Below are positions 42,012-54,575 of a DNA stretch of 64,000 nucleotides, piece after piece. The notes beneath the pieces are model-generated. The model saw only the letters and a list, made by a program, of their open reading frames with translations, had not been told where the DNA came from and made no database searches. Each line of letters starts with the position of its first letter. Position 1 is the first letter of the stretch. Made by a program: the position numbers and the translations under genes. The stretch comes from Geodermatophilus telluris (GTDB lineage: Bacteria > Actinomycetota > Actinomycetes > Mycobacteriales > Geodermatophilaceae), in the NCBI RefSeq assembly GCF_900102745.1, contig NZ_FMZF01000004.1:124001-188000 (forward strand), read 5' to 3'.

Positions 42012-43712
42012 TCAGTCCTCGGGCAGGCGCACCGGGGCGAGCTCGTCGAACAGGTCGCCGGGGCCCGGGTTGTCCGGGTGGCTGCGCCCGCCGAGGTGGT
42101 GCACCACGCCCCACACCGCGTTGAGCGCCGTCTGCACCGCGCCCTCGGCCCAGCCGGCGGTCCAGGAGATGTCGTCGCCGGCGAGGAACAGCCCGCGGTA
42201 CTGCTCGGGCAGGTCGTCCTGCTTGAAGTGGGTGAACAGCCGCCGCTGGTAGCGGTAGTGGCCGGGCAGGTTGGCCTTGAACGCGCCCATGAAGTCGCGC
42301 TCGGACTCCCACGACACCGTCACCGGCGAGGCGATGACGTGCCGGCGCAGGTCGACGTCGGGGTAGATCTCGCGCAGCGAGGCGAGCATGACCTCCATCC
42401 GCTCGGTGGCCGACAGCGGCAGCCACTTGAGCGAGTCGTCGGCCCAGGTGTAGCTCAGGCAGATCAGCCCGGGCTTCCCCTCGCCCTGGTCGAGCAGGTA
42501 CGTGCCGCGGGTCATCCGGTCCGACAGGGTCATGCTCATCCGGTGCCGGCCGGTCCGCGGGTCGACGTCCTTCCAGAACGGCCGGTCGACCAGGCAGAAC
42601 AGCTTCGTCGAGCCCATGTAGTGGGTGCGCTCGATCGCCGTCCAGTGGTCGATCGGGAACAGGCTCTCGTCGCAGGCGATCCGGGAGAGCAGGTTCCAGC
42701 TCTGCGCGGTGAACACCGCCGCCCGGAAGGTGCGGATGCCGCCGGCGGAGTCGGTGACGGTGAGGCAGTTGGGCGCCGTGCGGTGCAGCCGGGTCACGCC
42801 GGGCAGCGGGCGCCCGCCGGCGTGCAGCGAGGCCAGGCTGGTGCCGGCCGGCCAGTGCACCGGCTCCTCGACCGCGTGCCGCCACAGCCCCACCGGGAGC
42901 TGCTGGGAACCGCCCACGATCGACAGGTGGTCGTCGTCGGCGGCGGTGTAGACCACCCGCAGGATCTCCAGCATCGAGTTCGGGTAGTCGGTGTCCCACC
43001 CGCCGGTGCCGAAGCCGACCTGGCCGAACACCTCGCGGTGCCGGAAGGAGCGGAAGGCCGGCGAGGCGGCGAGGAAGCCGTAGAAGGTGGTGTCGTCGAG
43101 CTGCTCGACCAGCTCGTCCCAGATCGCCTTGATCGTCTTGACGTCGCGGTCGCGGATGGCGGTCTGCATCTCCGCCAGCCGCGCCCCGTGCGCCAGCGTG
43201 TCGTGCCAGGCGTCGGCCACCTCGCGGTAGAGCGGCGGGAGGTCGTCGAGGGTCTGCGCGTAGTGGGTCTCGCCCTTGAGGTCGACCACCGTGCTCGGGG
43301 TGGCCACGTCGAGCGGGTTGGGGAAGCGCGTCGTGCGCAGGCCCAGCTGCCGCACGTAGGAGAAGAAGGACGTCGACGACGGCGGGAAGCGCATCGCGCC
43401 CATCTCGGCGACCACGCCGGGGTGCCCCTCGAACGGCGTGGAGCGCAGCCGGCCGCCGATCTCGTGGGCCTCGTACACGACCGGCCGCAGGCCCAGCTTC
43501 ATCAGCTCGTGGGCGGTGACGATGCCCGACAGGCCCCCGCCGATGACCGCGACCTCGGTGCCGTGCTCGCTCTCGGGCACCTCGCCCAGCCCGGCGGGGT
43601 GGGCCAGCCAGTCGTCGTAGGCGAAGGGGAAGTCCGGGCCGAACATCGTCAGCGGCCGGGCCGGGCGCTCCTCGCCCGGCTCGTGGGTGGCGACGGGGAT
43701 GGCGGAGGTCAT
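42012..43712 (-). CDS. flavin amino-acid 2-monooxygenase (lysine/arginine/tryptophan type)
   Basis: 566 residues. The start TMFGPDFPFAYDDWLAHPAG and end FLAGDDISWTAGWAEGAVQT closely resemble L-lysine 2-monooxygenase (DavB) and relatives that oxidatively decarboxylate amino acids to amides. The FAD motif is VAVIGGGLSG at about 54-63, with ELMKLGLRPVVYEA. Coupled by ATGA to an amidase gene that would hydrolyse the amide. The adjacent guanidinobutyrase-like gene makes L-arginine a stronger candidate substrate than lysine, giving 4-guanidinobutanamide (inference). Confidence 0.85.
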   Translation of the reverse strand: MTSAIPVATHEPGEERPARPLTMFGPDFPFAYDDWLAHPAGLGEVPESEHGTEVAVIGGGLSGIVTAHELMKLGLRPVVYEAHEIGGRLRSTPFEGHPGVVAEMGAMRFPPSSTSFFSYVRQLGLRTTRFPNPLDVATPSTVVDLKGETHYAQTLDDLPPLYREVADAWHDTLAHGARLAEMQTAIRDRDVKTIKAIWDELVEQLDDTTFYGFLAASPAFRSFRHREVFGQVGFGTGGWDTDYPNSMLEILRVVYTAADDDHLSIVGGSQQLPVGLWRHAVEEPVHWPAGTSLASLHAGGRPLPGVTRLHRTAPNCLTVTDSAGGIRTFRAAVFTAQSWNLLSRIACDESLFPIDHWTAIERTHYMGSTKLFCLVDRPFWKDVDPRTGRHRMSMTLSDRMTRGTYLLDQGEGKPGLICLSYTWADDSLKWLPLSATERMEVMLASLREIYPDVDLRRHVIASPVTVSWESERDFMGAFKANLPGHYRYQRRLFTHFKQDDLPEQYRGLFLAGDDISWTAGWAEGAVQTALNAVWGVVHHLGGRSHPDNPGPGDLFDELAPVRLPED

Positions 43713-44512
43713 GCGCGGGTCTCCGTGGGGTAGAGCTCGGGACGGCGGTCGGTGAGGTGGGTGTTCACCGCGCGGGACGCGGCGAGGACGGCGGGGTCGA
43801 CGTCGGCCAGCAGCAGCTCCTCGCCGCGGCCGGCGCGGGCGAGCTCGGTGCCCTCGGGCGAGACGACGCAGCTGGCGCCGCAGTAGACGAACGCGCCCTC
43901 GGTGCCGGTGCGGTTGGCGTAGGCGACGTAGAGCTGGCTCTCGTAGGCCCGGGCCGGCACCAGCACCGTGCCCACGTGGCCGTAGGGGTCCATCAGCCCG
44001 GTGGGGACGACGAGCAGCTCGGTGCCGGCCAGCGCGTGGGCGCGCACGGCCTCGGGGAACTCGACGTCGTAGCAGACCAGCAGGCCGACGGTGAGGTCGT
44101 CGAGCCGGAACTGCACCACGCCGACGTCGCCGGGCACGAACGCGTCCCGGTCGACGTCGCCGTAGAGGTGGGCCTTGGCGTAGGTGGCCAGCAGGCTGCC
44201 GTCCCGCTCGAGGACGGCGACGGTGTTGGCCACCCCGGCCGCGGTGCGCACCGGCAGCCCGACGGCGATCGCCAGCCCGTGCTCGGCGGCGATCGCGGCC
44301 ACCCGGTCGGAGAGCGGACCGGGCACCGGCCCGGCCAGCTCGGCCACCCGGTCGGCGCCGATGGCGTAGCCGGTCAGCGACATCTCCGGGGTGACCAGCA
44401 ACCGGGCGCCGGCCGCCGCGGCCCGACGGGCGGCGTCGGCGACCGCCGCCAGCCCGGCCTCCGGGTCGGGCGTGTGCGCCGGGCCCTGCAGCAGCGCGAT
44501 CCGCACGGTCAC
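43709..44512 (-). CDS. nitrilase-superfamily omega-amidase
   Basis: 267 residues from the GTG that overlaps the permease stop (GTGA); a GTG two codons later is possible. Catalytic triad E43 (TPEMSLTGY), K113 (AKAHLYGDVDRDAF) and C147 (VCYDVEFPE). Sequence pattern resembles 5-aminovaleramidase (DavA). With the monooxygenase it would convert the amide to the acid: 4-guanidinobutanoate if arginine is the substrate, 5-aminovalerate if lysine. Middle gene of the permease-amidase-monooxygenase operon. Confidence 0.88.
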   Translation of the reverse strand: MTVRIALLQGPAHTPDPEAGLAAVADAARRAAAAGARLLVTPEMSLTGYAIGADRVAELAGPVPGPLSDRVAAIAAEHGLAIAVGLPVRTAAGVANTVAVLERDGSLLATYAKAHLYGDVDRDAFVPGDVGVVQFRLDDLTVGLLVCYDVEFPEAVRAHALAGTELLVVPTGLMDPYGHVGTVLVPARAYESQLYVAYANRTGTEGAFVYCGASCVVSPEGTELARAGRGEELLLADVDPAVLAASRAVNTHLTDRRPELYPTETRA

Positions 44513-45954
44513 GCGCCCGTGCGCAGGGCCGAGCGGCGGTACCCGTAGCCGGAGTAGACGGCCAGGCCGAGCAGCATCCAGCCGACGAACACGACCCAGG
44601 TCGAGGCGCCCAGGCCGAACATCAGCAGGACGCAGAACAGCACGCCGAGCACCGGGGTGATCGGGTAGAGCGGCGTGCGGAAGGTGCGCGGCAGGTCGGG
44701 GCGGGTGCGGCGCAGCAGCACGACGCCCACGTTGACCAGCGCGAAGGCGAACAGCGTGCCGATGCTGGTGGCGTTGGCCAGCTCGCCGAGCGGGATCAGC
44801 CCGGCCAGCAGCGCGATGAGCACGCCGACGATCACGGTGTTGGCCACCGGGATCCGCCGGCGGGCGCTCACCTTCGAGAAGACCGGGGGCACCAGCCCGT
44901 CGCGCGACATCGCGTAGAGGATGCGGGTCTGCCCGTAGAGCACGGTGAGCACCACGCTGGCGATCGCGATGACGGCGCCGATCGAGAGCAGCACCGCCGT
45001 CCAGGTCTGGCCGGTGGCCAGGGACAGCACGTCGGCCAGGGCCGCCTCCGAGCCGCTGATCTGCGGCCACGGCACGGCGCCGACGGCGGCCAGCGCGACC
45101 AGGCAGTAGACGACGGTGACCACCAGCAGCGACAGCATGATGGCGCGCGGCAGGTCGCGGCGGGCGTCGCGGGCCTCGTCGCCGGCGGTGGAGGCGGCGT
45201 CGAAGCCGATGTAGGAGAAGAAGGCCTGCGAGGCCGCCGCGGTCACGCCGGCGACGCCCATCGGCAGGAACGGCGCGAGGTTGCCGGCGCGGAAGGCGGT
45301 GAAGGCGACCACGCAGAAGAACAGCAGCACGCCGACCTTGAGCACGACCATGGCGGCGTTGACCCGGGCGCTCTCGCTGGTGCCGCGCAGCAGCAGCACC
45401 ATCGCCAGGAGGACGACCACGATCGCCGGGACGTTGACCACCCCGCCGTCGCCGGGCGGCGCGGACAGCGCGGCGGGCAGCACCGCGCCGACGGTGTTGG
45501 CGGCGAGGTCGTCGATGTAGGCGCCCCAGCCGACGGCGACCGCGGCCACCGAGACGCCGTACTCGAGCATCAGGCACCAGCCGCAGACCCAGGCGACCAG
45601 CTCGCCCATGGTGGCGTAGGTGTAGGAGTACGAGGAGCCCGAGACCGGGATGCTGCCGGCGAGCTCGGCGTAGGACAGCGCCGAGAACAGCGCGGTCACG
45701 GCGGCGAGCACGAAGCCGAGGACGACGGCGGGGCCGGCCAGCGGGACCGCCTCGCCGAGGATGACGAAGATGCCGGTGCCCAGCGTGGCGCCGATGCTCA
45801 GCGCGGTCAGCTGCCACAGGCCCATGGAGCGGCGCAGCCCGTGCCCGCCCGTCTCCTCGTGCTGGGCGACGATGGCGTCGACCGGCTTGAGCCTCAGCAG
45901 CTGGCTGCGCCCCGTCCGGGCGGCGGTGCCCGGCTCGGACCTGGTGGTTCCCAC
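44509..45954 (-). CDS. APC-superfamily cationic-amino-acid-type permease
   Basis: 481 residues, 12 or more helices. The start KPVDAIVAQHEETGGHGLRRSMGLWQLTALSIGATLGTGIF, SGSSYSYTYATMGELVAWVCGW and FFSYIGFDAASTAGDEA match the CAT (cationic amino acid transporter, YfnA-like) group. First gene of the operon with amidase and monooxygenase. Arginine or lysine uptake is the expected role and agrees with the enzyme set. Confidence 0.88.
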   Translation of the reverse strand: MGTTRSEPGTAARTGRSQLLRLKPVDAIVAQHEETGGHGLRRSMGLWQLTALSIGATLGTGIFVILGEAVPLAGPAVVLGFVLAAVTALFSALSYAELAGSIPVSGSSYSYTYATMGELVAWVCGWCLMLEYGVSVAAVAVGWGAYIDDLAANTVGAVLPAALSAPPGDGGVVNVPAIVVVLLAMVLLLRGTSESARVNAAMVVLKVGVLLFFCVVAFTAFRAGNLAPFLPMGVAGVTAAASQAFFSYIGFDAASTAGDEARDARRDLPRAIMLSLLVVTVVYCLVALAAVGAVPWPQISGSEAALADVLSLATGQTWTAVLLSIGAVIAIASVVLTVLYGQTRILYAMSRDGLVPPVFSKVSARRRIPVANTVIVGVLIALLAGLIPLGELANATSIGTLFAFALVNVGVVLLRRTRPDLPRTFRTPLYPITPVLGVLFCVLLMFGLGASTWVVFVGWMLLGLAVYSGYGYRRSALRTGA

Positions 45955-46051
45955 GTGCGCTCCTCCGTGCCTGTGCGGCGTCTCCGCCCAGGGTCCTCCG
46001 CGGACTCCTGTGGCGTGGGTCGCAGGGGAGCATCACCATCGGTTGCCCTGT

Positions 46052-46068
46052 TGTCAACCACGGTTTCC
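46052..46068 (-). promoter_or_regulatory. GGAAACN4GTTGACA box before the permease operon
   Basis: Minus strand GGAAAC-CGTG-GTTGACA. Its TTGACA can serve as the -35 of the permease-amidase-monooxygenase operon, so a bound regulator would control initiation. The same box is at 46740-46756. Confidence 0.6.
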
Positions 46069-46682
46069 TAGGACGACGGCGACGCGGCCGCCCTCCCCTC
46101 GGAGAGCGCGGGCGCGAACACCCAGAGCACCCGGGTGACCCCGTCGGTGCGCAGCGAGCGGAAGCCGTGCTCGGCGCCGGGCGAGAAGGTGAACGCGTCC
46201 CCGGGCCCGAGCGCGGTGACCTCGCCGGCCACGGTCACCTCGAGGTCGCCCTCCAGGACGAAGACGAACTCCACCTCGGCCGGCAGCGCGTAGGTCTCCG
46301 CGCCGCTGCCGCCGCCCGGCGCCACCTCCGACAGCAGCGCCTGCACCCGGCGCTCGCCGGAGGGCGTGAGCAGGTACTCGGTCAGGCCCCGGCCGCCGAA
46401 GGAGATGGGCGGGTAGCTGCCGGCCCGGACGACCTCCCCGCTCGGCGCGGCCTCGAACAGGCTGCCGGGAGAGATGCCCAGCGCGGCGCAGACGCGGACC
46501 AGCGCGGCCACCGAGGCGCTCGCCTGGTCGCGCTCGAGCTTGCTGAGGAACCCCTTGGTCAACCCGCTGGCCCCGGCCACGTCGGTCAGGGTCAGCCGGC
46601 GCGCCTGCCGGACGGCCTTGAGCCGCGCCCCGATCCGCGGCACGCCGTCGTCGGGCACCGCCCGGTCCTGCACCGCCTCCAC
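46068..46682 (-). CDS. XRE-type regulator with cupin domain
   Basis: 204 residues. The helix-turn-helix is at about 18-72 ([33 protein letters not shown]), followed by a C-terminal cupin (about 125-195: [34 protein letters not shown]). The GTG at 46682 is chosen since GGGGAGG precedes it; a GTG two codons earlier overlaps that site. It sits between the permease operon and the ureohydrolase, and identical boxes flank it. XRE-cupin proteins commonly control amine and amino-acid catabolism with the cupin as sensor. Confidence 0.85.
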
Positions 46683-46739
46683 CGCCACCTCCCCGGTCCC
46701 CCGCGACCCTAGTTCGCCGCGCCGGGGAGTTGACAAGTG

Positions 46740-46756
46740 GGAAACACGAGTTGACA
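46740..46756 (+). promoter_or_regulatory. GGAAACN4GTTGACA box before the ureohydrolase
   Basis: GGAAAC-ACGA-GTTGACA between the divergent regulator and ureohydrolase genes; a second GTTGACA lies 21 bp upstream at 46729-46735. It matches the box at 46052-46068 and is placed to control the regulator gene, the ureohydrolase gene, or both. Confidence 0.6.
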
Positions 46757-46812
46757 GTGACCGGCGACCCGGACGGGGGAGCCCGTCACCGCACCGTCCC
46801 GGAGGAGCACCC

Positions 46813-47769
46813 GTGCCCGAGCAGACCCCGATCGGCCCCGTCGACGCCACCCGCGTGCCGCGCTACGCCGGCCCCGCCACCTTCGCCCGGCTGCCCCGGC
46901 TCGAGGAGGTGTCCCGCGCCGACGTCGCCGTCCTCGGGGTGCCCTTCGACTCCGGCGTGAGCTACCGGCCCGGCGCCCGCTTCGGCCCGGGTCACGTGCG
47001 CGCCGGCTCCAAGCTGCTGCGGCCCTACAACCCGGCGCTGGACGCCACGCCGTTCGGCACCCAGCAGGTGGCCGACGCCGGCGACATCGGCGTCAACCCC
47101 TTCGACCTCGGCGAGGCGATCGAGACGATCGACCGCGAGGTGACCGCGCTGCGCGCCGACGGGGCCCAGCTGCTCACCATCGGCGGCGACCACACGATCG
47201 CGCTGCCGATCCTGCGGTCGCTGGCCCGCGACCACGGGCCGGTCGCCGTGCTGCACTTCGACGCCCACCTCGACACCTGGGACACCTACTTCGGCGCCCC
47301 CTACACGCACGGCACGCCGTTCCGCCGCGCCAGCGAGGAGGGGCTGATCGACATGGAGCGCTCGCTGCACATGGGCATCCGCGGCCCGCTGTACAGCAAG
47401 CAGGACCTCGAGGACGACGCCGTCCTCGGCTTCCAGGTGATCCGCTCCGACGACTACGAGGTCGACGGCGTGCGCAGCATCGTCGAGCGGATGACGCGGC
47501 GGCTGGCCGGCGGGCCGGTGTACGTGTCGGTCGACATCGACGTGCTCGACCCCGCGCACGCCCCGGGCACCGGCACGCCGGAGGCCGGCGGGCTGACCAG
47601 CCGGGAGCTGCTCAACACGCTGCGCGGGCTGGTCGGGCTCGACGTCGTGGGCGCCGACATCGTCGAGGTGTCCCCGCCCTACGACCACGCCGAGCTGACC
47701 GGGATCGCCGCGGCCCACGTGGGCTACGAGCTGCTGTCGGTGCTCGCGCTCAACCGCGCCGGGGCCTGA
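46813..47769 (+). CDS. guanidinobutyrase/agmatinase-like ureohydrolase
   Basis: 318 residues. The manganese motifs are GGDHT (D126, H127), [10 protein letters not shown] and [14 protein letters not shown]; also [23 protein letters not shown] and [13 protein letters not shown], close in style to 4-guanidinobutyrase (GbuA). It would split 4-guanidinobutanoate to GABA and urea, exactly the step after the monooxygenase and amidase. Agmatinase is the main alternative. GTG with GGAGGAG. It is paralogous to the ureohydrolase at 35.4 kb. Confidence 0.87.
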
Positions 47770-47776
47770 CCACCAC

Positions 47777-47832
47777 CCCGCGGCAGGTCGTGCTCTGCCC
47801 ACAGGTGTGGGCAGAGCACGACCTGCCGCGGG
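47777..47832. terminator. 27-bp perfect-stem bidirectional terminator
   Basis: Perfect inverted repeat with 27-bp arms and a 2-base centre, lying between the converging ureohydrolase and Lrp genes. It is the longest perfect stem in the window. No U-tract. Confidence 0.75.
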
Positions 47833-47851
47833 AGGAGGGCCGGCCTCCGGC

Positions 47852-48349
47852 TCAGAGGCCGGGAGCGGCGGGCGCGGGCCCCTGCGGGCCGCGGGTGCCC
47901 CACGCGTAGGTCTGCTTGGCCAGGCCCAGGTAGACGTGGGTCTCGGTGGACTCCACGCCCTCCACACCGCGGATGCGGGCGACGACGTCGAGCAGCTGGT
48001 CGTCGTCCTCGCAGACCACCTCGACGAAGAGGTCCACCGACCCCGCGGTGATGACCACGTAGTCGACCTCGGTGAAGGCGGCGATCCGCTCGGCGGCGGT
48101 GCGGGCGTCGCCGCTGGTGCGCACGCCGACCATCGCCTGCCGGGAGAAGCCCACCTGCAGCGGGTCGGTGACGCCGACGATCTGCATGACGCCGGCGTCG
48201 AGGAGCCGCTGCACGCGCTGCCGGACGGCGGCCTCCGACAGCCCGACGGCCGTCGCGATGCGCGCGTAGGGACGGCGGCCGTCCTCCTGCAGCTGCTCGA
48301 TGATCGCCCGCGAGACGTCGTCCAGCACGAACTGCCGACGGATGGTCAC
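47852..48349 (-). CDS. Lrp/AsnC-family regulator
   Basis: 165 residues. The helix-turn-helix (DDVSRAIIEQLQEDGRRPYA, VGLSEAAVRQRVQRLLDAG) is followed by a RAM/AsnC effector domain (VDYVVITAGSVDLFVEVVCE). GTG 48349 is preferred to an upstream ATG since it matches the family start length. It lies 97 bp downstream of the NAD-glutamate dehydrogenase gene, in the same direction, and likely responds to an amino acid of the arginine/glutamate pathway. Confidence 0.88.
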   Translation of the reverse strand: MTIRRQFVLDDVSRAIIEQLQEDGRRPYARIATAVGLSEAAVRQRVQRLLDAGVMQIVGVTDPLQVGFSRQAMVGVRTSGDARTAAERIAAFTEVDYVVITAGSVDLFVEVVCEDDDQLLDVVARIRGVEGVESTETHVYLGLAKQTYAWGTRGPQGPAPAAPGL

Positions 48350-48446
48350 CCGGGAGCCCTCCCGCCTCGGTCGCCTCGACCCGGCGGCCCCGGGCTCCCG
48401 GATGGTAGCGACCACCCGGGGGCCCGGCGCCCTCCCTCGGAGGGGG

Positions 48447-51400: not shown

Positions 51401-51575
51401 GGACCGCGACGGCGTCGGCCACCCGCACGCCGAGCCGGTCGAGGACCGGCACGACGTCGGCCAGCAGCGGGCGGTCGGCCGGCCAGGTCACCAGGCCGCC
51501 GACCCGGCCGCCACCGGCCGGGCCCTCCGGTCGCAGGGTCAGCCGGCGCCGTGCGCCGGCGGCCGGGGCGCTCAC
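48447..51575 (-). CDS. gdh: NAD-dependent glutamate dehydrogenase, short large-type form
   Basis: 1042 residues. The catalytic core has KVARGGLRWSERPEDFRTEV, GLVKAQMVKNAVIVPAGAKG (catalytic Lys), VVAADKGTATFSDLAN, GYDHKAMGITARGAW and VGVGDMSGDVFGNG, typical of the bacterial NAD-GDH family. Known GDH-180 enzymes are about 1600 residues, so this lacks most of the N-terminal regulatory region and is nearer a 115-kDa-type form. GTG overlaps the gabT stop (GTGA). It would return glutamate made by GabT to 2-oxoglutarate and ammonia, closing the GABA transamination cycle. Confidence 0.88.
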   Translation of the reverse strand: MSAPAAGARRRLTLRPEGPAGGGRVGGLVTWPADRPLLADVVPVLDRLGVRVADAVAVPGDGDAPATRLELLLPAGTAPDAALPRLEQALAAAWAGETELDGLSRLTVGAGLPVRDVAVLRAACRYLAQVGLGLSRGYVEETVLAAPEFARALLAHFAARHDPDAADPAAAASAAEHLAELLTRTTSLDQDRILRGLRDVLAAVVRTNRYQTDAAGAPRPALALKIASAQLDLLPAPRPEVETFVCSPSVEGLHLRGAKVARGGLRWSERPEDFRTEVLGLVKAQMVKNAVIVPAGAKGAFVVREDLRGLDRPAVQQRVAAAYRTFVGALLDVTDDRDGDTVVHPARTVVHDGEDPYLVVAADKGTATFSDLANEVAESRGFWLGDAFASGGSSGYDHKAMGITARGAWVSVRRHLRELGVDPDGELTAVGVGDMSGDVFGNGMLLSDRLRLVAAFDHRHVFLDPDPDPARSAAERRRLFALPGSSWDDYDRTALSAGGGVYRRDAKSVPLSPQVRARLGVDAEELPPAELVRAVLRAPVDLLWNGGIGTYVRAADETDAQVGDRANDAVRVTAEELRCRVVGEGGNLGLTQRARTAAARAGVALNTDFIDNSAGVDTSDREVNLKIALSGVPRAERDAVLRAVEDEVAAAVLVDNALQARALSVCAEQAPFLLDRHAQLIGDLERHGLDRDLEGLPSEAAVERLRQAGAGLTRPEAAVLLAHSKNLVRQELLASDLPDDPSVAGVLAAYFPRAVRERWPDRVAAHPLAREITATQLANDLVNRVGPGFLLRLEERHGVPTAVAARAYTVATRVLDLDPLWALVDGVAGSEVPLAVERLALPELQAATERVADRLLAAHRDPAALTAAAPALAAVVAGLERAGWLARPGAAGERARALAAELAAAGAGAELAERVAVLGCQADVVDLARVGGAADAGRVLAADAEVERLLGLPRVHAWTLEQAGDSHWVVAARAALREEVDRMHWALVAAVLRDPAVLTGRHGAALARFTAVRDRAGSARDDVLGRACVVVAELRRLVEAVG

Positions 51576-52927
51576 TTCCCGACGTGCGCGTCGAAGGCGG
51601 CGTCGAGGACGTCGAGGCCCTCGGTGAGCAGGTCGCGCCCGATGACCAGCGGGGGCAGGAAGCGCAGCACGTTGCTGTGCGTGCCGGCGGTCAGCGTGAT
51701 GACGCCCTCGGCGTGGCAGGCCTTGGAGACCGCGTTGGTCAGCGCGGCGTCGGGCTCGGTGGTGCCCGGCTTGACCAGCTCGACGGCCAGCATCGCGCCG
51801 CGGCCGCGCACGTCGCCGACCACGCCGGTGCGCTCCTTCAGCGCGTGCAGGCGCGGCAGCATGGTGGCCTCGATGTCGCGCGCGGCGGCGTTGAGGTCGA
51901 GCTCGCGCATGGTGCGGATGCTGGCCAGCGCGGCGGCGCAGGCCACCGGGTTGCCGCCGTAGGTGCCGCCCAGGCCGCCGGTGTGCACGGCGTCCATGAG
52001 CTCGGCGCGGCCGGTGACGCCGGCCAGCGGCATGCCGCCGGCGATGCCCTTGGCGGTGGTGACCAGGTCGGGGACGACGCCCTCGTGCTCGGCGGCGAAC
52101 CAGGCGCCGGTGCGGCAGAAGCCGGTCTGCACCTCGTCGGCGATGAACACCGCGCCCGAGCGGCGGCACCACTCGCTCAGCGCCGGCAGGAAGCCCGGGG
52201 CCGGGACGACGAAGCCGCCCTCACCCTGGATCGGCTCGATGAGCACGGCGGCCACGTTGTGCGCGCCGATCTGCGTCTCGATGAGGTCGAAGGCCCGCGC
52301 GGCGGCCTGCTCGCCGGTCATCCCGGGCGCGTCGCGGTACGGGTAGGACATCGGCACCCGGTAGACCTCGCCGGCGAACGGGCCGAAGCCGTTCTTGTAC
52401 GGCATGTTCTTCGCCGTCAGCGCCATCGTGAGGTTGGTGCGGCCGTGGTAGGCGTGGTCGAACACGACGACGGCGGAGCGGCCGGTGGCCACCCGGGCCA
52501 CCTTGACCGCGTTCTCCACGGCCTCGGCCCCGGAGTTGAACAGCGCCGAGCGCTTCTCGTGGTCGCCGGGGGTGAGCCGGTCGAGCTCCTCGGCGACGGC
52601 GACGTAGCCCTCGTACGGGCCGACCATGAAGCAGGTGTGGCTGAACGCCGCGACCTGGGCCTGCACGGCGGCGACCACCTCGGGGGCGGCGTGGCCCACG
52701 TTGGTGACGGCGATACCCGAGCCGAGGTCGATGAAGGAGTTGCCGTCGACGTCGACGACCACGCCACCGCTGGCGCGCTCGACGTAGACCGGCAGGACGC
52801 TGCCCACGGCGGAGGTCACCGCGGCCGACCGGCGGGCGGCCAGCTCGCGCGAGCGGGGGCCGGGCAGCTCGGTGACGAGGCGCCGCTCCTGCGCGACGGT
52901 GTCCGGGCCGGGAAGCAGGGTGGTCAT
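51572..52927 (-). CDS. gabT: 4-aminobutyrate-2-oxoglutarate transaminase
   Basis: 451 residues, class III PLP enzyme. The PLP lysine is K293 in TTAKGIAGGMP; the ring-stacking Asp is in FIADEVQTGF; NSGAEAVENAVK binds phosphate. It converts GABA to succinate semialdehyde with 2-oxoglutarate as acceptor. ATG with GAGGAGAG upstream. It is coupled to glutamate dehydrogenase and divergent from a PucR regulator. In context it consumes GABA from the guanidinobutyrate and putrescine routes. No clear succinate-semialdehyde dehydrogenase is in the window. Confidence 0.92.
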   Translation of the reverse strand: MTTLLPGPDTVAQERRLVTELPGPRSRELAARRSAAVTSAVGSVLPVYVERASGGVVVDVDGNSFIDLGSGIAVTNVGHAAPEVVAAVQAQVAAFSHTCFMVGPYEGYVAVAEELDRLTPGDHEKRSALFNSGAEAVENAVKVARVATGRSAVVVFDHAYHGRTNLTMALTAKNMPYKNGFGPFAGEVYRVPMSYPYRDAPGMTGEQAAARAFDLIETQIGAHNVAAVLIEPIQGEGGFVVPAPGFLPALSEWCRRSGAVFIADEVQTGFCRTGAWFAAEHEGVVPDLVTTAKGIAGGMPLAGVTGRAELMDAVHTGGLGGTYGGNPVACAAALASIRTMRELDLNAAARDIEATMLPRLHALKERTGVVGDVRGRGAMLAVELVKPGTTEPDAALTNAVSKACHAEGVITLTAGTHSNVLRFLPPLVIGRDLLTEGLDVLDAAFDAHVGK

Positions 52928-53066
52928 GGCTCTCTCCTCGCGGGTCGGTCTCCCCCGACGGGGGACGTCCTCGGCCTCCAGGGTGGGTGAGGCACGTCTC
53001 TCCCGGTACCGTCCGGACCGGCACCCCGGAGGCGTCCGGGTGTCCACTTCGTCGAGAGGTCCCGCC

Positions 53067-54575
53067 GTGCCGGTCACCGTCGCGACCCTGCTGGGGACGG
53101 CGTCGCTGGAGCTGGCGCTGCACACCCGCCGCGCGCCGGTGGACCGCGCCGTCTCCTGGGTGCACGTCAGCGAGCTGGCCGACCCGACGCCGTTCCTCGA
53201 GGGCGGCGAGCTGCTGCTGACCACCGGCCTGGCGCTGACGCCGGGCGACGCCCCCGCCTACGTGCGGCGGCTGGCCGGTGCCGGCGTGGTGGGCCTGGGC
53301 CTGGGCACCGGGCTGAGCCACGCGCGGGTGCCCGACGAGCTCGTGTCCGCCGCCGACGAGTCGGGGCTGGCGGTGCTCGAGGTGCCCCGGCAGACGCCGT
53401 TCATCGCGCTGTCGCGGACGGTCTCCACCGCGCTGGCCGCCGAGGAGTACGCCGCGGTGTCCCGCACGTCGACGGTGCAGCGGGAGCTCACCCGCGCCGC
53501 GGTCGGGCCGGGCGCCCCGGGCACCGTCGTCGACCGGCTGGCCCGCCACCTCGGCGGCTGGGCGCTGCTGCTGGACGCCGCCGGCACGCCGCTGGAGGCC
53601 GCCCCGGCCGGGGCCCGCTCGCGGGCGGGGGCCCTGGCCGGCCCGGTCGACCGGCTGCGCACCACCCGCCCGCCGGCCGGTGCCGCGCTGACCCAGCCCG
53701 GGGAGACGGTGCTGCTGCAGTCGCTGGGCACCGGGTCACGGGTGCGCGGCTTCCTCGCCGTCGGCCGCCCCGGCCCGTTCCCGGCCGGTGACCGGCACGT
53801 GGTCAACGCCGCCGCGCTGCTGCTCACGCTGCGGCTGGAGCAGTCCCGCGCGCTGGACTCGGGCACCGCGGCGCTGCGCGCGGCGATCCTGCAGCTGCTG
53901 CTGGCCGGGCAGACCGCCGCGGCCGAGCCCGTGGTGGCGGCCCTGGGCGAGCGGCTGCCCGGCGAGCCGGTCGCGGCGGTGGCCGTGCTGGGCAGCGCCG
54001 AGCAGCGCGCCGCCGCCGTCGACGTCGCCGCCGACGCGGCCGCCGCCACCCGCGAGCCGGTGCTGTCGGCGGAGGTCGAGGACACCCTGGTCGTGCTGGT
54101 GCCCGCCGGCGGGGCGCTGGCCGGCCGGCTGGCCGACCTCCCCGACCGGGTGCCCGGCACCGTCCTGGGCACCGCCGGCCCGGTGCCGTGGCAGCGGCTG
54201 GCCGACGGCGTGCGGCAGGCCCGCCAGGCCGCCGGGCACGGCCGCGCCGCCGGGCGGCCGGTGACCGCGTTCGCCGACCTGGCCGGCCGGGGGCTGTCCG
54301 CGCTGCTCGACCCGGCGGCCACCACCGCCTTCGCCGAGGCCGCGCTCGCGCCGCTGGCCGCCGCCGACCGCGCCGGTCCGGGCGACCTGGTCGAGTCGCT
54401 GCGCGTCTGGCTGGCCGCGCACGGCCAGTGGGAGCCGGCCGCGGCGCGGCTGGGTGTGCACCGGCACACGCTGCGCAAGCGGATCCGCCGGGCCGAGGAG
54501 CTGCTGGGCCGCGACCTGGACTCCCCCGGTGTCCGGGCCGAGCTCTGGCTGGCCCTGCACCCGCCCACCACCTGA
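53067..54575 (+). CDS. PucR-family regulator
   Basis: 502 residues. The N-terminal PucR domain (VATLLGTASLELALH to about 130; SELADPTPFLEGGELLLTTG) leads to a GAF-like middle and a C-terminal helix-turn-helix (AAARLGVHRHTLRKRIRRAE). The GTG at 53067 follows GAGAGG; a GTG at 53040 is less supported. Divergent from gabT across 139 bp, and PucR activators adjacent to gabT are known in actinobacteria, so GABA- or glutamate-linked activation is likely. Confidence 0.87.
   Translation: MPVTVATLLGTASLELALHTRRAPVDRAVSWVHVSELADPTPFLEGGELLLTTGLALTPGDAPAYVRRLAGAGVVGLGLGTGLSHARVPDELVSAADESGLAVLEVPRQTPFIALSRTVSTALAAEEYAAVSRTSTVQRELTRAAVGPGAPGTVVDRLARHLGGWALLLDAAGTPLEAAPAGARSRAGALAGPVDRLRTTRPPAGAALTQPGETVLLQSLGTGSRVRGFLAVGRPGPFPAGDRHVVNAAALLLTLRLEQSRALDSGTAALRAAILQLLLAGQTAAAEPVVAALGERLPGEPVAAVAVLGSAEQRAAAVDVAADAAAATREPVLSAEVEDTLVVLVPAGGALAGRLADLPDRVPGTVLGTAGPVPWQRLADGVRQARQAAGHGRAAGRPVTAFADLAGRGLSALLDPAATTAFAEAALAPLAAADRAGPGDLVESLRVWLAAHGQWEPAAARLGVHRHTLRKRIRRAEELLGRDLDSPGVRAELWLALHPPTT

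Follow-up and report, generated by a model that had tools for sequence, protein, structure and literature searches.

An XRE-cupin protein as the likely local repressor of probable arginine-route genes through three-half-site operators in Geodermatophilus telluris

PuuR of Escherichia coli is an XRE-cupin repressor that responds to putrescine. The XRE-cupin proteins of Pseudomonas aeruginosa whose regulons have been determined are described, in the parts of the source that treat these regulons (PMC7901475), as inhibitors that act mostly at core promoters, at least one of these beside the regulator's own gene; with the exception of PauR, they have one or two targets, and the motifs that could be derived for them are palindromic. 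On the metabolic side, the account of azalomycin biosynthesis in Streptomyces, as given in part of PMC5082578, has an arginine monooxygenase followed by a 4-guanidinobutyramide hydrolase. The titles and abstract openings covered by a literature search named no regulator of this pathway in Actinobacteria.

Here we describe an XRE-cupin gene of Geodermatophilus telluris that lies between a permease-amidase-monooxygenase operon and a ureohydrolase gene (Table 1), within a stretch of 64,000 nucleotides that was analyzed as a whole (the window). From sequence comparison, we consider it likely that the protein is a local repressor of the operon, of the ureohydrolase gene, and of its own gene, acting through two operators, and that the genes it controls belong to an arginine route.

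Table 1. Genes, predicted promoters, and predicted operators of the locus (positions in the window)
Feature	Positions	Strand	Basis or sequence
Flavin amino acid monooxygenase, probably arginine 2-monooxygenase	42012..43712	-	Nearest solved structure 3we0
Carbon-nitrogen hydrolase, probably 4-guanidinobutyramide amidase	43709..44512	-	Pfam CN_hydrolase; substrate inferred
APC-type amino acid permease	44509..45954	-	Annotation, domain search
Predicted operon promoter	46029..46057	-	TTGACA 46057-46052, N17, GATGCT 46034-46029
Operon-side operator (predicted)	46042..46068	-	GGAAAC-N4-GTTGAC-N5-GGCAAC; kept in 12/12 orthologous loci
XRE helix-turn-helix and cupin regulator	46068..46682	-	Pfam HTH_31/HTH_3, Cupin_2; start GTG 46682 from ortholog alignment
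Predicted regulator promoter	46706..46736	-	TTGTCA 46736-46731, N19, TAGGGT 46711-46706; read by eye from alignment
Ureohydrolase/regulator-side operator (predicted)	46729..46756	+	GTTGAC-N5-GGAAAC-N4-GTTGACA; kept in 12/12 orthologous loci
Predicted ureohydrolase promoter	46730..46758	+	TTGACA 46730-46735, N17, GACAGT 46753-46758
Ureohydrolase, probably 4-guanidinobutyrase	46813..47769	+	Nearest solved structure 3nio

Boxes, half-sites, and promoters around the regulator gene

A sequence-only reading of the window had proposed that the box GGAAACN4GTTGACA stands on both sides of the XRE-cupin gene, and this holds, with an exact minus-strand copy at 46052-46068 and an exact plus-strand copy at 46740-46756; the gene layout that it described (operon on the minus strand, ureohydrolase on the plus strand, XRE-cupin gene between them) matches the annotation. 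The operon-side copy overlaps the stop codon of the regulator gene (46070-46068) by a single base. In the 64-kb window, the two boxes are the sole matches at up to two mismatches, compared to a mean of 0.22 matches in dinucleotide shuffles of the window, where two were reached in 2 of 100 shuffles. The same reading had named a random frequency of the motif in the genome as the outcome that would speak against it and had called for a search for further sites: at up to one mismatch, a scan of the whole genome (4.8 Mb in 12 contigs) returned these two places and no third copy, with zero for the reversed-pattern control, and no exact box arose in four 4.8-Mb genomes simulated with an order-3 model of the window. 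Chance alone as the origin of the boxes was rejected on the basis of the shuffles, the genome scan, the simulated genomes, and the family-wide search described below.

The sequence GGAAAC-N4-GTTGAC is an inverted repeat of a half-site GTTKMC (reverse complement GKMAAC), a form that the sequence-only reading had missed, and comparison of the loci identifies the box as the core of a wider predicted operator of three alternating half-sites, GTTKMC-N5-GKMAAC-N4-GTTKMC. The third half-site lies 5′ of the box on the ureohydrolase side and 3′ of it on the operon side, so that on each side half-sites of the same sense stand 21 bp, or two helical turns, apart. Across the 12 orthologous loci, the GTTGAC half-sites are invariant, and GKMAAC is matched in 8 loci on the ureohydrolase side and, on the operon side, in 11 at the first position and 5 at the outer one, every misfit being in the first base. 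In its exact form, the three-half-site pattern occurs in the genome only at the two local operators. Two mismatches add four further places, namely, the upstream region of a paralog, an overlapping register of the operon site, and one place each on contigs 4 and 5, while up to three mismatches give 44 places compared to 39 for the reversed control, so that matches at this level are noise. A wider regulon with gabT (52930-51572) or glutamate dehydrogenase, for which the three-mismatch matches stay at control level, is unsupported.

The TTGACA of each box had been proposed as a −35 element, which stands on the operon side but not on the ureohydrolase side. There, the box TTGACA (46751-46756) is followed by no hexamer with A2 and T6 at 16 to 19 bp and overlaps the predicted −10, so that it was rejected; the better −35 is the TTGACA at 46730-46735, 21 bp upstream, which fits in 12/12 orthologs, and only with this element do the operon and ureohydrolase promoters align with each other. 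A 17-bp spacer together with A2 and T6 of the −10 is seen in 23 of the 24 promoters of the 12 loci (ureohydrolase, 12/12; operon, 11/12), the exception being the operon promoter of L033 (N18, GAAGCT). The −10 hexamers are poor (3/6 consensus bases), and CGACCC follows 5 to 6 bp past the −10 in all 12 ureohydrolase promoters and in 8 of the 12 operon promoters, with CGAT variants in the other four. The predicted regulator promoter, with an invariant −10 TAnnGT (12/12) and a spacing of 16 to 19, is weaker than the other two; it is divergent and would use the ureohydrolase-side operator, which probably places the regulator's own gene in the regulon as a third transcription unit.

Two further elements were seen in the flanks of the ureohydrolase gene. 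Just 3′ of its predicted −10, the sequence CGACCCGGACGGGG (46765-46778) is invariant in 12/12 orthologs, a conservation as strict as that of the operator. The gap between the ureohydrolase gene and the Lrp-type gene holds a long inverted repeat (47760-47849; 44-nt arms, 82% complementary), perhaps a two-way terminator; because a 20-base segment taken from its arm is matched at 16 places in the genome at up to two mismatches, compared to 0 for the control, the repeat is part of a repeated element.

Conservation of the operators and co-occurrence with the regulator

Orthologs of the regulator were found in 12 of the 112 genomes of the family, G. telluris included, at 82 to 100% identity, with the next matches at 53%; nine of the orthologous loci belong to Geodermatophilus or Blastococcus. 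Both boxes are present with zero or one mismatch in all 12 regulator-bearing genomes. The exact sequence GAAACN4GTTGACA occurs at 28 places over the 112 genomes (control, 0), of which 24 are the local boxes, 1 is at another position in a genome that bears the regulator, and 3 lie in other genomes; expressed by genome, it is found in 12/12 with a regulator ortholog and in 3/100 without. The proposal that one XRE-cupin regulator governs uptake, oxidation, and ureohydrolysis together is thereby well supported, as far as comparison of sequences can speak to regulation. The four stray places are in G005, G044, G068, and G092.

Because the 12 genomes are closely related, counts over them are not independent. 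Kinship alone would nevertheless be a poor explanation of the conservation, since the other noncoding columns of the 12-locus alignment are much less conserved: invariant columns make up 26/31 of the operator and 40/99 of the other noncoding sequence on the ureohydrolase side, and 17/27 compared to 15/89 on the operon side. It is also countered by the persistence of the site at about 54 to 68% regulator identity.

By the same kind of comparison, the box tracks the regulator and not the enzymes. A ureohydrolase of at least 95% identity occurs in twelve family genomes, exactly those that bear the regulator, and nine further family genomes with an 88 to 89% identical ureohydrolase have neither a regulator ortholog nor an exact box. 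G005 is the only genome that has an 87% identical monooxygenase without a regulator ortholog, and the three-half-site pattern is absent, at up to three mismatches, from the 12 kb around that monooxygenase. The genes behind the box are themselves variable: in L011 it precedes amidase and monooxygenase genes, and no permease match was found there, and in L085 (G008) it precedes an amidase remnant and a monooxygenase gene. The remnant (L085:2882-3250) is a 63-residue amidase match in a 122-residue frame, between box and monooxygenase.

Probable pathway, mode of action, and alternatives

Among solved structures, the best match of the monooxygenase is 3we0 (770 bits), an L-amino acid oxidase/monooxygenase that, according to the sections of PMC5832979 that deal with its substrates, accepts Lys, Orn, and Arg, whose side chain is held by Asp238. 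This aspartate, which binds the basic side chain, is conserved in the monooxygenase described here and is compatible with both arginine and lysine. The carbon-nitrogen hydrolase matched no curated NCBIfam equivalog at or above cutoff. For the ureohydrolase, the best solved structures are guanidinobutyrase 3nio (288 bits) and then 3-guanidinopropionase 3nip (278 bits). Taken together, the enzymes fit a predicted route from L-arginine to GABA and urea by way of 4-guanidinobutyramide and then 4-guanidinobutyrate, in which the permease would import arginine and the monooxygenase, amidase, and ureohydrolase would carry out the conversion. This ties the monooxygenase-amidase-ureohydrolase set to probable arginine breakdown, and a ketoarginine-decarboxylase-like enzyme near related regulators likewise points to arginine.

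Two other groups of genes touch on this route. A 4-aminobutyrate transaminase beside a divergent PucR-type regulator (51572-54575), without the shared operator, is expected to be the next GABA step; in G005, relatives of this pair stand beside relatives of the monooxygenase and amidase. A second monooxygenase group, 58 to 60% identical, is present in 10 family genomes, 7 of them without a strong ureohydrolase match, and may be a lysine (5-aminovaleramide) enzyme; its loci (L180-L186, L189) lack the box, amidase relatives stand beside the monooxygenase in the three whose neighborhoods were inspected (L183, L184, L189), and in L184 gabT is beside it as well.

As for the mode of action, we infer that a dimer of the regulator would recognize the inverted repeat GKMAAC-N4-GTTKMC and that the third half-site, two turns off, would extend the operator and seat a second dimer. 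On both sides, the operator would overlie the −35 together with the spacer or the −10, and the bound protein would thereby exclude RNA polymerase from the three units. Release of the repressor would follow when its cupin domain binds a pathway compound, be it arginine, 4-guanidinobutyramide, or 4-guanidinobutyrate.

The regulon could be right and the substrate another, that is, lysine by the 5-aminovaleramide route, or agmatine/putrescine, which we regard as unlikely. Lysine is suggested by the nearest characterized monooxygenase, for which the kinetic part of PMC5832979 gives a preference for lysine and ornithine over arginine (kcat/Km of 74 and 200 compared to 24), and by L017, where a monooxygenase and an amidase, with no ureohydrolase match, lie beside the regulator; agmatine is suggested by the ureohydrolase, which also scores above the NCBIfam agmatinase cutoff. 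However, a ureohydrolase adjoining a monooxygenase and an amidase makes sense for arginine, the closest solved structure of the ureohydrolase is a guanidinobutyrase, and in L076 the regulator is accompanied by a ureohydrolase and by an enzyme whose best match is a 5-guanidino-2-oxopentanoate decarboxylase.

The remaining alternatives leave the genes as they are and change the regulation. That the same regulator, on the same operator, acts as a pathway activator, or as activator and repressor both, seems quite improbable: one operon-side half-site does stand immediately 5′ of the −35, a position open to activators, and the −10 hexamers are as poor as those of promoters that need help, but the operon and ureohydrolase promoters have a full TTGACA −35, the ureohydrolase-side operator lies wholly between −35 and −10, and the P. 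aeruginosa proteins cited above are, in the material on their regulons (PMC7901475), all inhibitors. Still more improbable, in our view, is that the box serves a different regulator, for example the Lrp-type protein (47852-48415), or is only a strong promoter shared by the genes. In 7 of 9 orthologous loci, a relative of the Lrp-type gene lies close to the ureohydrolase, and TTGACA is a −35 consensus, so that what is conserved is in part a promoter; yet GGAAAC and the outer half-sites are no promoter elements, the site is kept in distant loci where no Lrp relative was found (L013-L016, L074-L077), and the pattern recurs upstream of an XRE-cupin paralog, beside other genes. We retain local repression by the XRE-cupin protein as the preferred reading.

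Related regulators and known systems

The paralog, on contig 3, is 52% identical to the regulator and has the three-half-site pattern, with two mismatches, about 100 bp upstream. It is divergent from a cytosine/purine-type permease (L078:4060-7070; contig 3, about 378559-381569), with the pattern between the two genes; in the relatives L080, L081, and L083, the paralog set includes a ureohydrolase. In 11 relatives, the pattern occurs at up to two mismatches at 58 places compared to 31 in the control and is therefore not clean in this wider form; 22 of the places are the local operators, and another 6, one in each of six genomes, stand at most about 130 bp 5′ of the counterpart of the paralog. 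Among nine paralog-type regulators (L019, L078-L084, L086), the pattern is directly upstream of three (L078, L081, L086) and missing there in six; in L080 it precedes the divergent permease instead of the regulator.

Beyond the family, relatives of the regulator are sparse (12 of 394 genomes of the class at E 1e-40 and 16 of 298 genomes of the order at E 1e-45, family members included in both). We searched 300 bp upstream of 12 distant regulators of about 52 to 69% identity (L012-L018, L073-L077) for the three-half-site pattern at up to three mismatches, with 200 shuffles each; L020 and L021 (32% and 24% identity) were left out, L012-L016 and L073-L077 were each counted once, and shorter copies of several (e.g., L052-L055, L066-L068) were not counted. 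The pattern was found upstream of 9 of the 12, and the match was equaled in 0/200 shuffles for eight of these and in 2/200 for L015. L073 retains the two-half-site core only, and L017 and L018 have no site within 300 bp upstream of the regulator at this threshold, L017 having a three-mismatch box between regulator and amidase. A scan of whole loci (GTT-N11-AAC-N4-GTT or the core) matched 30 of 47 and left 17 without a match, a count that includes copies and has no chance control.

The commonest neighbor of the distant regulators is a ureohydrolase, in 9 of 12 loci (L013-L016, L073-L077), L012 and L018 ending early at contig ends. The transporters vary, with an APC permease in L075 and L077, a cytosine/purine-type permease in L014-L016, a sodium:solute symporter in L076, and a family-3 binding protein in L012 and L013. 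L012, L013, and L076 have a thiamine enzyme, for which 5-guanidino-2-oxopentanoate decarboxylase is the best NCBIfam match in L076 (481 bits, below the cutoff of 500) and the second match, also below cutoff, in L012 and L013. A tentative extension, which we hold to be possible rather than probable, is that these proteins form an actinobacterial subfamily of XRE-cupin repressors, reaching to ∼50% identity, that share one three-half-site code with 21-bp spacing, seat more than one dimer, are released by 4-guanidinobutyrate or a close relative, and are dedicated to arginine routes that form 4-guanidinobutyrate. If so, the enzymes of the route (monooxygenase and amidase, or ketoarginine decarboxylase) and the transporter would be interchangeable.

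An unstudied actinobacterial regulator gains predicted target genes, a predicted operator, and a handful of candidate ligands, and a guanidino-responsive regulator could serve as a biosensor. The 52% identical paralog seems to have retained the half-site code, so that operators of related regulators may be predictable.

Compared to PuuR, the regulator has the same domain order and has PuuR as its best full-length NCBIfam match, but its target genes are different, and because it scores 53.1 bits against a cutoff of 211 (NF007408), it is not a PuuR. The azalomycin pair of Streptomyces has, as far as the account in PMC5082578 goes and at the level of enzyme activity, the same two activities that are predicted here, leading to 4-guanidinobutyrate. 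There, this compound is activated to a polyketide starter unit (same part of PMC5082578), whereas here the ureohydrolase would yield GABA and urea from it, and a permease and a dedicated regulator are present.

The closest likeness is to the P. aeruginosa XRE-cupin proteins, which the regulator fits on each feature that sequence can address. It has an N-terminal XRE-type helix-turn-helix and a C-terminal cupin domain (HTH_31, HTH_3, and Cupin_2 above Pfam cutoffs), a predicted palindromic site (GKMAAC-N4-GTTKMC) in the intergenic region on both sides of its gene, predicted −35 and −10 elements that overlap the operator on both sides, and few, nearby targets, with two exact operator places in the genome. 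ErfA, PsdR, PauR, PA0535, and others, as presented in the relevant parts of PMC7901475, likewise combine XRE and cupin domains, have genes beside their few targets, bind at core promoters with palindromic motifs where these were derivable, and have metabolic neighbors, some of them in polyamine or arginine metabolism. What differs here is the actinobacterial host, the three alternating half-sites, the target genes, and a motif derived by comparison instead of by DAP-seq. Because the P. aeruginosa XRE-cupin proteins are proven local repressors, as reported in the same parts of PMC7901475, the regulator of G. telluris would be a new representative of an established kind of repressor.
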